From NCBI GenBank assembly GCA_946620645.1, contig CAMONN010000007.1, positions 1-32,182 of the forward strand: a stretch of 32,182 nt of DNA, read 5' to 3'. Both the position numbers and the translations under genes were made by a program. The stretch comes from an uncultured Clostridia bacterium. Lineage in GTDB: Bacteria > Bacillota > Clostridia > Oscillospirales > Oscillospiraceae. The notes beneath the pieces were generated by a model that was given only the letters and a program-made list of their open reading frames with translations, was not told the origin of the DNA and ran no database searches. Position 1 is the stretch's first letter; each line of letters begins with the position of its first letter. Below are positions 6,858 to 30,528 of this stretch, piece by piece.

Positions 6858-8234
6858 ATGGCCGCACAGAAGATCGATTCCCACCGCATGGGTGAGATGG
6901 CAGAGGGAAAGCTGCTTATCACACTTGCAATTCCGATGATTCTCTCCATGCTTGTGCAGGCTTTATATAACATTGTGGACAGTATTTATGTCGCCCGTGT
7001 TTCTGAAGACTGTCTTTCCGCCCTGTCGCTTGCATTCCCCGCGCAGAACATCATGATCGGCCTCGCCACCGGCACAGGGGTCGGCGTCAGCACCCTGGTT
7101 TCCCGGGCGCTGGGCCGTCGGGATGAAACAGAAGCCCGGCAGGTCACCGGAACCGCGATTTTTCTCTGTTTCTGCTGCTGGGTTCTTGTGGCGCTCTTCG
7201 GTATTTTCGGAGCCCGGGCCTTTATCCGTTCTCAGACTCAGGTGGAGAGTATCCGCGCTTATGCAGAGTCCTATCTGCAGATTGTGACCGTTGCGTCACT
7301 GTTTCTATATCTGGAGGTCTGCGTGGAGCGTCTGCTGCAGTCTACAGGACTGACAAAGCTCTCCATGTGGACTCAGATGATCGGCGCCGTAACCAACATT
7401 ATTCTGGACCCCTTCTTTATCTATGGTTGGCTGGGTCTTCCCGCCATGGGAACCGCCGGTGCTGCCGTCGCCACGGTGATCGGCCAGGCTGTTGGAGCCG
7501 CTGTCGGGTTTGTTCTGCATATCCGGGAAAACCGGGAACTGCCGATCACTGCTGCGGACATTCGTCCGCACGGAAGAATCATCCGTGAGATTTACCGGAT
7601 TGGTTTCCCCTCCATTCTGATGATGGGTATCGGTTCGGTCACCAACTATATGATGAACATTATTCTCGGCGCCTTCACATCCACCGCCGTTGCCGTTTAC
7701 GGTGTATACTTCAAAATTCAGAGTTTCTTCTTCATGCCTGTTTTCGGTATTAACAACGGTCTGATCCCGATTATCGGCTATAACTACGGGGCCGGGAAGA
7801 AGGAACGGATTTACCGCACCATCCGCTACGGCATTCTTTATGCCACCTGCTTCATGCTTCTGGGGTTTGCCGCCTTCCAGTTGATTCCGGAGGCACTGCT
7901 CGGCATCTTCAATCCCTCGGAGGCCATGCTGGCCATCGGGGTTCCGGCGCTTCGGAGAATCAGCCTCAGCTTTCTCTTCGCCGGGTTCTGCATTGTGGCC
8001 GGCTCCGCCTGCCAGGCTCTGGACCGCAGCATTAATTCCCTCTTTGTATCGATCCTCAGGCAGATACTTGCCCTGATCCCCTCCGCGTGGCTTCTCAGCA
8101 AAACAGGGGACGTGAGCATGGTGTGGTGGGCTTTCCCGATCGCCGAAATCATTTCCCTGACAGCAAGTTTCTTTTTTCTCCGTTCCGCCCTTAAAGGAAT
8201 GGAGCGTACTTTGGGGTCAGCAGCAAACTCCTGA
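6858..8234 (+). CDS. MATE family efflux transporter
   Basis: ~460 aa polytopic; MAEGKLLITLAIPMILSMLVQALYNIVDSIYVARVSEDCLSALSLAFP; GINNGLIPIIGYNYGAGKKERI. ATG at 6858. Confidence 0.94.
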   Translation: MAAQKIDSHRMGEMAEGKLLITLAIPMILSMLVQALYNIVDSIYVARVSEDCLSALSLAFPAQNIMIGLATGTGVGVSTLVSRALGRRDETEARQVTGTAIFLCFCCWVLVALFGIFGARAFIRSQTQVESIRAYAESYLQIVTVASLFLYLEVCVERLLQSTGLTKLSMWTQMIGAVTNIILDPFFIYGWLGLPAMGTAGAAVATVIGQAVGAAVGFVLHIRENRELPITAADIRPHGRIIREIYRIGFPSILMMGIGSVTNYMMNIILGAFTSTAVAVYGVYFKIQSFFFMPVFGINNGLIPIIGYNYGAGKKERIYRTIRYGILYATCFMLLGFAAFQLIPEALLGIFNPSEAMLAIGVPALRRISLSFLFAGFCIVAGSACQALDRSINSLFVSILRQILALIPSAWLLSKTGDVSMVWWAFPIAEIISLTASFFFLRSALKGMERTLGSAANS

Positions 8235-27473: not shown

Positions 27474-27502
27474 AGTATACCACAGGGACGGATGCACGTA
27501 AA
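27474..27502 (-). promoter_or_regulatory. Promoter of the DnaQ-like exonuclease
   Basis: Minus strand TTTACG (27497-27502), 17 bp, TATACT (27474-27479). Confidence 0.6.
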
Positions 27503-27614
27503 CAGGAAGAGTACTTTCGTTCGGTGTCCGGTCAGAGAAATCATTTCCGACCCGGTATTTGCAGGTTTTTGCACTGGACTTTTTCGCACGGTTTACATAA
27601 TATTGAATCAGGAT

Positions 27615-27720
27615 AAAAAAAAGCCGCCCAGGAGGGCGGCCAATATAAAAACCGGACGGTCCCTGGAGGATCAGGAGAACCGTGCCGGGAAGGAGATCGG
27701 GCAATTGCGGCCTGATCCCG
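27615..27720 (-). ncRNA. Candidate small regulatory RNA, ~106 nt
   Basis: Own promoter TTGACT-N17-TACAAT at 27727-27755; terminator GCCGCCC-TCCT-GGGCGGC-TTTTTTTT at 27615-27640; strong internal hairpin; no credible ORF. Confidence 0.6.
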
Positions 27721-27726
27721 AATCAG

Positions 27727-27755
27727 ATTGTAGCAGAGTCGGCAGGCAGAGTCAA
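27727..27755 (-). promoter_or_regulatory. Promoter of the candidate sRNA
   Basis: Minus strand TTGACT (27750-27755), 17-bp spacer, TACAAT (27727-27732). Confidence 0.7.
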
Positions 27756-27995: not shown

Positions 27996-30005
27996 TTAGT
28001 ACAGCTTTGCACCGGCCGGGATGTGCGGATCCACCATCAGGAGGTGGAGCTTTTCCTCCCCGCCCTCCTTATGGACAGCACTTATGAGCATACCGCAGGA
28101 GTCAATGCCCATCATTTTCCTGGGAGGAAGATTCGTGATGGCGATGCAGGTCTTGCCGATCAGCTGTTCCGGCTCATAATAGGCATGAATACCGCTTAAA
28201 ATGGTGCGATCCGTGCCGCTGCCATCGTCCAGTGTAAACTGGAGCAGCTTCTTGCTCTTTGGAACGGCAACACAGTCCTTGACCTTTACGGCGCGGAAAT
28301 CGGACTTGGAGAAGGTCTCGAAATCGACGAGATCCTCAAACAGCGGCTCGATCACCAGGCTTGCAAAGTCAGGCTTTTTCGCATCAAAGATCGGCATGGA
28401 AGGATCGTCCGCATTCACCGCCGGAGCCTCTTCAGACGCCGTCTCTACTGTTGCAGCCTCCTCGGATTTCTGTACACCATTCTTGTCCTTTGGTGTATCA
28501 AGCGGTTTCATCGTCGGGAAGAGCAGCACATCGCGGATGGCCGCGGAATCGGTCAGCAGCATGCAGAGGCGGTCGATACCGTAGCCTATGCCGCCTGTAG
28601 GAGGCATACCGATCTCAAGAGCGTTCAGGAAATCCTCATCGGTGGAATTTGCCTCTTCGTCGCCCTTGGCCAGCATCTCCTCCTGCGCCCGGAAACGCTC
28701 ACGCTGGTCAATGGGGTCGTTCAGTTCGGAATAGGCATTGGCCATTTCCCAGCCGTTGATAAAGAGCTCAAAGCGTTCCACATACTCGGGATCGTCCGGT
28801 TTGCGCTTGGTAAGGGGAGAGATCTCCACCGGGTGCTCCGTAATGAAAGTCGGCTGAATCAGCTTGTCCTCCACAAACTCGTCAAAGAAGAGGTTCAGAA
28901 TGTCGCCCTTGCCGTGACGCTCCTCATAGGCCACGCCCTTCGCCTTTGCGGCGGCGCGGGCCTCCTCCAGACTGTGGATTTCAGAAAAATCAACTCCGGA
29001 ATACTTTTTAACCGCCTCGGTCATGGTGACGCGGGCAAAGGGCTTGCCCAGGTCAATCTCCATCCCGTTATAGGTGACCACATCGGTGCCGAGCACCTCC
29101 CAGGCCACGTGGCGGAAGAGATTCTCCGTCAGATCCATCATGCCGTGGAAATCGGTATAGGCCTGATAGAGTTCCATCAGGGTGAACTCCGGATTGTGAC
29201 GCGTATCCATTCCCTCGTTGCGGAAGACCCGGCCGATCTCATAAACCTTCTCCAGGCCGCCGACAATCAGGCGCTTGAGGTAAAGCTCCAGAGAAATGCG
29301 GAGCTTCAAATCCTGATCCAGAGCGTTGAAATGGGTCAGGAAAGGCCGCGCCGCAGCGCCGCCGGCGTTCTGTACCAGCATCGGAGTTTCCACTTCCAGG
29401 AAGCCAAGCCCGTCGAGGTAGCGGCGGATGCTGCTGATAATACGGGAGCGCCGAATGAAGGTTGCCCGGACATCCTCGTTCATGATGAGGTCGACATACC
29501 GCATTCTGTAACGAAGATCAGTGTTGGTCATGCCGTGGTACTTTTCCGGCAGGGGACGCAGCGACTTGGAAAGCAGCTGCAGGTTTTCCACATGGATTGT
29601 GATCTCACCGGTCTGGGTACGGAAAACATAACCGCTGACGCCGATAATGTCGCCGATATCAAACTTGCGGAAGTCCTGAAACTCCTGCTCGCTGACCGCG
29701 TCCTTCCGCACGTACAGCTGAATCTGTCCTTCCCGGTCCTGGATGTGGCAGAAAATGGCTTTGCCCATCCCGCGCTTGGAAAGAATGCGCCCCGCAACGG
29801 AGACCGTGCGGTTTTCAAAGGCATCATAATTGCGCTTAATCACCGCGGAGTCCGCGCTGCGAACATAGCTTGTCACCTTAAAGGGATCCCGGCCCTCATC
29901 CTGCAGGGCCCTCAGCTTGTCCCTGCGAATCTGAAGAAGCTCCGAAAGGTCCTCCGTTGCCTCTGTCCGGTTTTCGCTCTGGCGTTCCAGATTTTCCGTA
30001 TTCAT
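27996..30005 (-). CDS. lysS: Lysyl-tRNA synthetase (class II) with fused C-terminal tRNA-binding domain
   Basis: Class II motifs (IRRYLDGLGFLEVETPMLVQNAGGAAARPF, RNEGMDTRHNPEFTLMELYQAY, GIGYGIDRLCMLLT), then linker and Trbp111/MetG-C-like domain (KSDFRAVKVKDCVAVPKSKKLLQFTLDDG...GIDSCGMLISA). Start MNTENLERQ at 30005. Confidence 0.93.
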   Translation of the reverse strand: MNTENLERQSENRTEATEDLSELLQIRRDKLRALQDEGRDPFKVTSYVRSADSAVIKRNYDAFENRTVSVAGRILSKRGMGKAIFCHIQDREGQIQLYVRKDAVSEQEFQDFRKFDIGDIIGVSGYVFRTQTGEITIHVENLQLLSKSLRPLPEKYHGMTNTDLRYRMRYVDLIMNEDVRATFIRRSRIISSIRRYLDGLGFLEVETPMLVQNAGGAAARPFLTHFNALDQDLKLRISLELYLKRLIVGGLEKVYEIGRVFRNEGMDTRHNPEFTLMELYQAYTDFHGMMDLTENLFRHVAWEVLGTDVVTYNGMEIDLGKPFARVTMTEAVKKYSGVDFSEIHSLEEARAAAKAKGVAYEERHGKGDILNLFFDEFVEDKLIQPTFITEHPVEISPLTKRKPDDPEYVERFELFINGWEMANAYSELNDPIDQRERFRAQEEMLAKGDEEANSTDEDFLNALEIGMPPTGGIGYGIDRLCMLLTDSAAIRDVLLFPTMKPLDTPKDKNGVQKSEEAATVETASEEAPAVNADDPSMPIFDAKKPDFASLVIEPLFEDLVDFETFSKSDFRAVKVKDCVAVPKSKKLLQFTLDDGSGTDRTILSGIHAYYEPEQLIGKTCIAITNLPPRKMMGIDSCGMLISAVHKEGGEEKLHLLMVDPHIPAGAKLY

Positions 30006-30033
30006 ACAGTCTGACCTCAAATGATAAAGATTC

Positions 30034-30528
30034 TCAGGTGTTATCCACCGACAGAATGTGGATATGGACCGCTCCGGAAGGCGCTTCAATGGTGACCTCT
30101 TCCCCGGCACGGTGGCCGATCAGGCCCTTACCCACGGGGGAGTCATCCGAAATACGGCCTTCCCGGGGATTGGCCTCCTGGGAACCGACGATCTCATAGG
30201 TTTCCTCAAAGTTGTCATCCATGTCCTGCACATCCACACGGCTGCCCAGGGTGATGGCGTCGCGCGGAAGATTATGGTCCACATTGTCCACGATCTCAGC
30301 GTGCTCAATGAGGTCCTTGTATTCCGCAATTTTGGAATAGAGTCTCCCCTGCTCGGTTTTTGCTTCGTCATATTCGCTGTTTTCAGACAGATCGCCGAAG
30401 CTGCGCGCTTCCTTAATCTGCTCGGAGACTTCCTTGGCGCGGTCCGTCTCCAGATAATTCAGCTCCGCCTTAAGCTCCTCCAGGCGTTCCAGACTCATTT
30501 TGTAGCGGTTAGAATTTTGATTTGGCAT
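30034..30528 (-). CDS. greA: Transcription elongation factor GreA
   Basis: LEELKAELNYLETDRAKEVSEQIKEARSFGDLSENSEYDEAKTEQG; GSQEANPREGRISDDSPVGKGLIGHRAGEEVTI. Confidence 0.95.
   Translation of the reverse strand: MPNQNSNRYKMSLERLEELKAELNYLETDRAKEVSEQIKEARSFGDLSENSEYDEAKTEQGRLYSKIAEYKDLIEHAEIVDNVDHNLPRDAITLGSRVDVQDMDDNFEETYEIVGSQEANPREGRISDDSPVGKGLIGHRAGEEVTIEAPSGAVHIHILSVDNT

Follow-up and report, generated by a model that had tools for sequence, protein, structure and literature searches.

The window analysed here is a stretch of 32,182 nucleotides from an uncultured Clostridia bacterium of the Oscillospiraceae (contig CAMONN010000007.1 of assembly GCA_946620645.1), in which a putative small RNA (sRNA) gene of ~106 nt lies on the minus strand (27615-27720) between lysS on one side and the gene of an RNase_T/DnaQ-like exonuclease on the other; all features described below are on this strand. 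Both ends of the gene are placed from its promoter and terminator, and the limits 27720-27615, proposed in an earlier interpretation of the letters alone (the sequence-only reading), are judged right. The sequence and coordinates given there were likewise confirmed, as were a promoter TTGACT-17-TACAAT (27755-27727) and a terminator with a T-run. The -35 box TTGACT (27750-27755) and the -10 box TACAAT (27727-27732) match 10 of 12 consensus positions, in a promoter scan that returned six promoter-like sites in 4 kb against 2.6 expected. The intrinsic terminator, P3 (27615-27641), has an 8-bp stem with a TCCT loop, placed by the terminator scan at 27641-27622 and followed by the T-run. The RNA is insulated from lysS by the latter's own terminator, found in the same scan (27940-27907), and the exonuclease gene has, as had been claimed, a separate promoter-like site, TTTACG-17-TATACT, at 27474-27502.

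The predicted fold of the window copy reaches -49.7 kcal/mol (z = -4.7), better than 200 of 200 shuffles. The conserved core is hairpin P1 (27719-27693), in which GGGATCAGGC from the 5' end is paired with GCCCGATCTC in a 10-bp stem containing one A/C mismatch in this copy, with a 7-nt loop CGCAATT (27709-27703); P1 had been overlooked in the sequence-only reading, where GGGATCAGGC was paired with the loop of the next hairpin. The 3' base of P1 and the linker behind it hold a CTCCTT motif that resembles an anti-Shine-Dalgarno (anti-SD) sequence (27690-27695) and whose linker residues UUC are single-stranded in the predicted ensemble. Hairpin P2 (CCGG...CCGG, 27688-27652), predicted earlier and again here, is enlarged by a CU-rich insert, CTCCTGATCCTCC, and is separated from P3 by a single-stranded TTTTTATA (27644-27651).

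Thirteen further copies are known: two belong to a second genus, and 11 are spread over eight further genomes of the genus of the window, which, counting the window copy, thus has 12 copies in 9 of 102 genomes. Searching congeners at the DNA level gave one clear partial match, in genome G015, at an unrelated site where the promoter, P1 and the P2 tail CCGG-TTTTTATA are nevertheless present. A first covariance model, built from the P1 regions of the window and G015 copies, found more copies, and a second, based on 11 copies, returned E = 1e-15 to 5e-12 in G015 (three copies), G435 (two), G475, G476, G447, G024, G455 and the window genome, all of these copies being part of the model itself, while the diverged G449 copy, which was not, was picked up at E = 3e-5. 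In the genome_contigs collection, a degenerate pattern had 15 matches, the true ones including RUG13128, labelled Lachnospiraceae, whose genus holds a second copy in G764. The true matches are all metagenome-assembled genomes, and their titles name ruminant stomach samples or the RUG/RUI series, which we take to be rumen assemblies. One of the loci labelled Lachnospiraceae (L105), 100% identical over 3,668 bp to an RGIG1531 contig, was counted as the same copy and is probably mis-binned.

Among the candidates that were rejected, the pattern matches L034, L035 and L036 have neither promoter nor P2, L035 and L036 lying moreover inside a coding frame; G010 (L096) also lacks promoter and P2; L100 and L097, which have no P1, did not reach significance; L102, L112, L115 and L116 match the degenerate pattern by chance; and L117-L120, returned by the family search at E ~0.002-0.009, do not have the shared architecture. 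No further members were found in ~300 genomes of each of two families, one search scoring only 16 candidates per genome, and the phage, plasmid and viral collections held no relatives of the RNA. In Rfam 15, the window RNA falls below the gathering cut-off of every family (best sub-threshold matches 11-22 bits), and no match was obtained at the 13 loci carrying the other copies. The ~106-nt RNA belongs to a new, uncatalogued family, narrow in lineage and solid as a family, which gives a group of uncultured gut Clostridia an sRNA family supported by covariation at loci where Rfam has no match.

All 14 copies have one layout: a promoter is followed by a 10-bp P1 with a 7-nt loop of the form C-R-N-N-AUU, and a short linker leads to P2, which a U-rich/AUA spacer separates from P3. 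The family is defined by the promoter, the covarying P1 with this loop, the CUCCU-type strand and linker, P2 and the P3 terminator, all of which the window RNA has. A TTGACN box (once TTGCAT) stands 17-18 nt before the -10 box throughout, the latter being mostly TATAAT-like. P2 and P3 are found in every copy with largely different sequences, P2 measuring only ~16-22 nt outside the window copy and P3 remaining a G+C-rich hairpin that a T-rich tail usually follows; the spacer is kept as a U-rich stretch plus AUA. Such a promoter-P1-linker-P2-P3 architecture, recurring in 13 homologues, lies well beyond chance.

P1 covaries among the copies. In 11 of them, 97.3% of stem cells are paired and two-sided changes occur in six pairs, a covariation score reached by none of 500 shuffles, with slid controls only 36-56% paired; in the 13 distinct copies, 127 of 130 cells are paired and seven of the ten pairs show two-sided changes. 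Even in G449, whose stem GAAGCUGUGC/GCGCAGCUUC has many changed bases, pairing is complete. Judged from these aligned copies, the P1 stem is proven by covariation. A small coding gene was considered and rejected by inspection: the linker and P2 differ in length out of frame between copies, and the changes in P1 are compensatory.

This stem also bears on the pseudoknot, or switch between two folds, that had been proposed from an 8-nt complementarity between GGATCAGG and CCTGATCC. The complementarity exists, but the structure built on it is rejected: the nested alternative reaches -43.9 against -49.7 kcal/mol (5.8 worse), CCTGATCC lies within the P2 loop only in the window copy, and the 5' strand involved is part of the covarying P1. 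The relatives do not conserve the loop complementarity. In most copies the P1 5' strand could also pair with CCGGUUU of P2, forming 7-8 of 8 pairs when G-U is counted; this second alternative is weak and inseparable from shared ancestry.

Of the three CU-rich segments previously likened to anti-SD loops, the CUCCU(U) of P1 and the linker is near-invariant, whereas the segments of the P2 and P3 loops are not conserved. CTCCT is kept in 12 of 14 copies (11 of the 13 distinct ones), the exceptions being TTCCT in G449 and CCCCT in G447. Invariant across the distinct copies are the loop positions C11 and A15-T17, the closing pair C10-G18 and the CCT at and after the stem end. An unlikely but possible explanation of this pattern is that the RNA binds a protein, as a sponge or scaffold, through the C-R-N-N-AUU loop on its 10-bp stem and the UUUUUAUA spacer, the CUCCU being incidental or part of the site. 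Loop residues A15, T16 and T17 with their closing pair are fixed while the stem bases covary, and the spacer TTTNTATA is conserved among copies, as such recognition sites would be. However, conservation of the CUCCU strand is roughly equal to that of the loop, and P1 pair 2-26 tolerates a suboptimal G-U, rather than G-C, in 11 of 13 distinct copies, which suggests that it is CUCCU, not the stem, that holds the U in place. In the window copy, P2 also contains CTCCTGATCC, the linker string of G015a and G015b, so that this copy may have acquired a second anti-SD segment.

The neighbours of the RNA differ at nearly every locus, the sole shared context being a recent block in G476 and G015c, and the RNA is not tied to the lysS-exonuclease interval: the family is dispersed, the exonuclease orthologues lie in other contexts, and no RNA copy was recognised upstream of them. 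The RUG13128 copy (L139, RNA at 7984) adjoins a GmrSD_N (DUF262) gene and others resembling a defence island, G015a lies near an apparent AbiE-type pair, G024 near a toxin-antitoxin pair and G764 near an apparent IS110-type transposase. At least six copies (G015a, G015b, G475, G435b, G750 and G447a, the last by sequence reading) run into a convergent gene, and these copies are therefore no leaders. A cis-acting leader, attenuator- or riboswitch-like, in which read-through of P3 would control the next gene, is accordingly very unlikely for the family. It would fit the same-strand gene that follows within ~60 nt of P3 in G449 and G476/G015c alone, where read-through into the downstream gene is possible, and the fact that G476 and G015c carry RNA and gene as one block; yet the downstream genes have no common function, and, besides the promoter-like site of the window exonuclease, another is readable before the antitoxin of G024. 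With a promoter and terminator of its own in 14 of 14 copies, the lysS terminator upstream of the window copy and convergent genes downstream of at least six copies, the RNA is, as far as genome sequence can tell, an independent transcription unit, as had been proposed.

The block shared by G476 (L076/L135) and G015c (L077/L131) spans 642 bp at 94% identity, from the RNA through an alpha/beta-hydrolase-like gene; it begins in the promoter spacer, beside the -10 box, and both copies keep their -35 box in unrelated upstream sequence. A block starting in the spacer with the -35 boxes left outside may reflect recombination that exchanged sequence at the RNA gene. That the copies are conserved through movement alone, as a mobile DNA repeat of the miniature inverted-repeat transposable element type, is nonetheless hardly probable. 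Their dispersed and patchy distribution with up to three copies per genome, the nearness of some to accessory genes (the AbiE-like pair, the GmrSD-type gene, transposases, toxin-antitoxin genes) and the homology block starting within a promoter would agree with it, but the compensatory changes in P1, the fixed promoter spacing and a terminator hairpin that is unrelated in sequence in most copies point to selection on the transcript, and inspection by eye showed no terminal inverted repeats shared by the copies. We also hold it improbable, if somewhat less so, that this RNA gene spreads horizontally among gut Clostridia, moving between unrelated sites with accessory genes and acting via the invariant P1 loop, rather than being an ordinary chromosomal anti-SD regulator; the loop might then, for example, tune defence or toxin-antitoxin genes or titrate a translation or RNA-binding factor.

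Beyond the observed architecture, P1 covariation, autonomy and dispersal, we infer, with somewhat more confidence than doubt, an independent trans-acting anti-SD sRNA of a new family whose CUCCU(U) would block ribosome binding on target mRNAs. Transcription would start at its own vegetative promoter and end at P3, with P1, P2 and P3 serving as its stable scaffold. The CUCCU(U) that spans the base of P1 and the linker would pair with GGAG-type Shine-Dalgarno (SD) sequences, the resulting duplex would exclude ribosomes and switch the target genes off, and opening of the weak, G-U-containing base of P1 could lengthen the duplex. Strong duplexes of the segment with start regions are predicted: for the SD GGAGGGAGA of the adjacent exonuclease, in the leader GGAGGGAGACCATATG, the duplex with GAUCUCCUUCC has -16.1 kcal/mol and ranks second among 27 start regions. 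Several points weigh against such a role. Duplexes of about -16 kcal/mol also form with ~0.5% of 39-nt window stretches, SD complementarity being generic for CU-rich segments, and the exonuclease is therefore a candidate target only. Part of CUCCU is paired inside P1; the invariant P1 loop (AUU) and the spacer UUUUUAUA are unaccounted for by an anti-SD function and could be protein sites; and the RNA, present in only 9 of 102 genomes of the genus, is absent from most congeners and therefore not a core regulator.

Anti-SD sRNAs with several copies per genome are known from other Gram-positive bacteria, namely the csRNAs (PMC3091779) and LhrC (PMC4132741), to which the new family appears analogous while unrelated in sequence. 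Like the csRNAs of Streptococcus, which belong to the CiaRH regulon (PMC3091779), it is dispersed and multi-copy and has a hairpin at its 5' end, a linker with a single-stranded anti-SD segment, and a terminator hairpin. The csRNAs, however, are CiaR-driven, mostly carry an anti-AUG (CAU) with a conserved nonamer and often have two hairpins, as opposed to three here, with P1 the conserved part. CiaR-dependent csRNA promoters carry a TTTAAG direct repeat. The window copy has no such repeat upstream and no CAU beside CUCCUU. The LhrC1-5 RNAs of Listeria monocytogenes, whose targets are repressed by binding upstream of the start codon, have three redundant CU-rich target sites conserved in each copy (PMC4132741). 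Three CU-rich sites are present in the window copy as well, but among the copies of the new family the P1/linker site alone recurs, partly within a paired stem, and no Rfam-level or motif relation to LhrC was seen. In RsaE, FsrA and other Gram-positive sRNAs a C-rich motif likewise pairs with SD sequences (PMC4132741); the new family differs in having no Rfam match, other hairpins and the motif CUCCUU instead of UCCC. From this comparison, Streptococcus, Listeria and these gut Clostridia seem each to have evolved multi-copy anti-SD RNAs on their own, and the clear anatomy of the motif (P1 loop, CUCCUU and spacer) lends itself to simple targeted mutagenesis.

Two minor features of the locus may be added. 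A 16-nt string, CAATATTATGTAAACC, occurs 3' of the terminator in both the window copy (27590-27605) and G435a (L138, 7816-7830), two otherwise unrelated loci, and is absent from the other independent loci fetched. The lysyl-tRNA synthetase-like product of lysS (27996-30110) combines a class II tRNA synthetase core and an anticodon-binding domain with a C-terminal tRNA_bind domain (PF01588).
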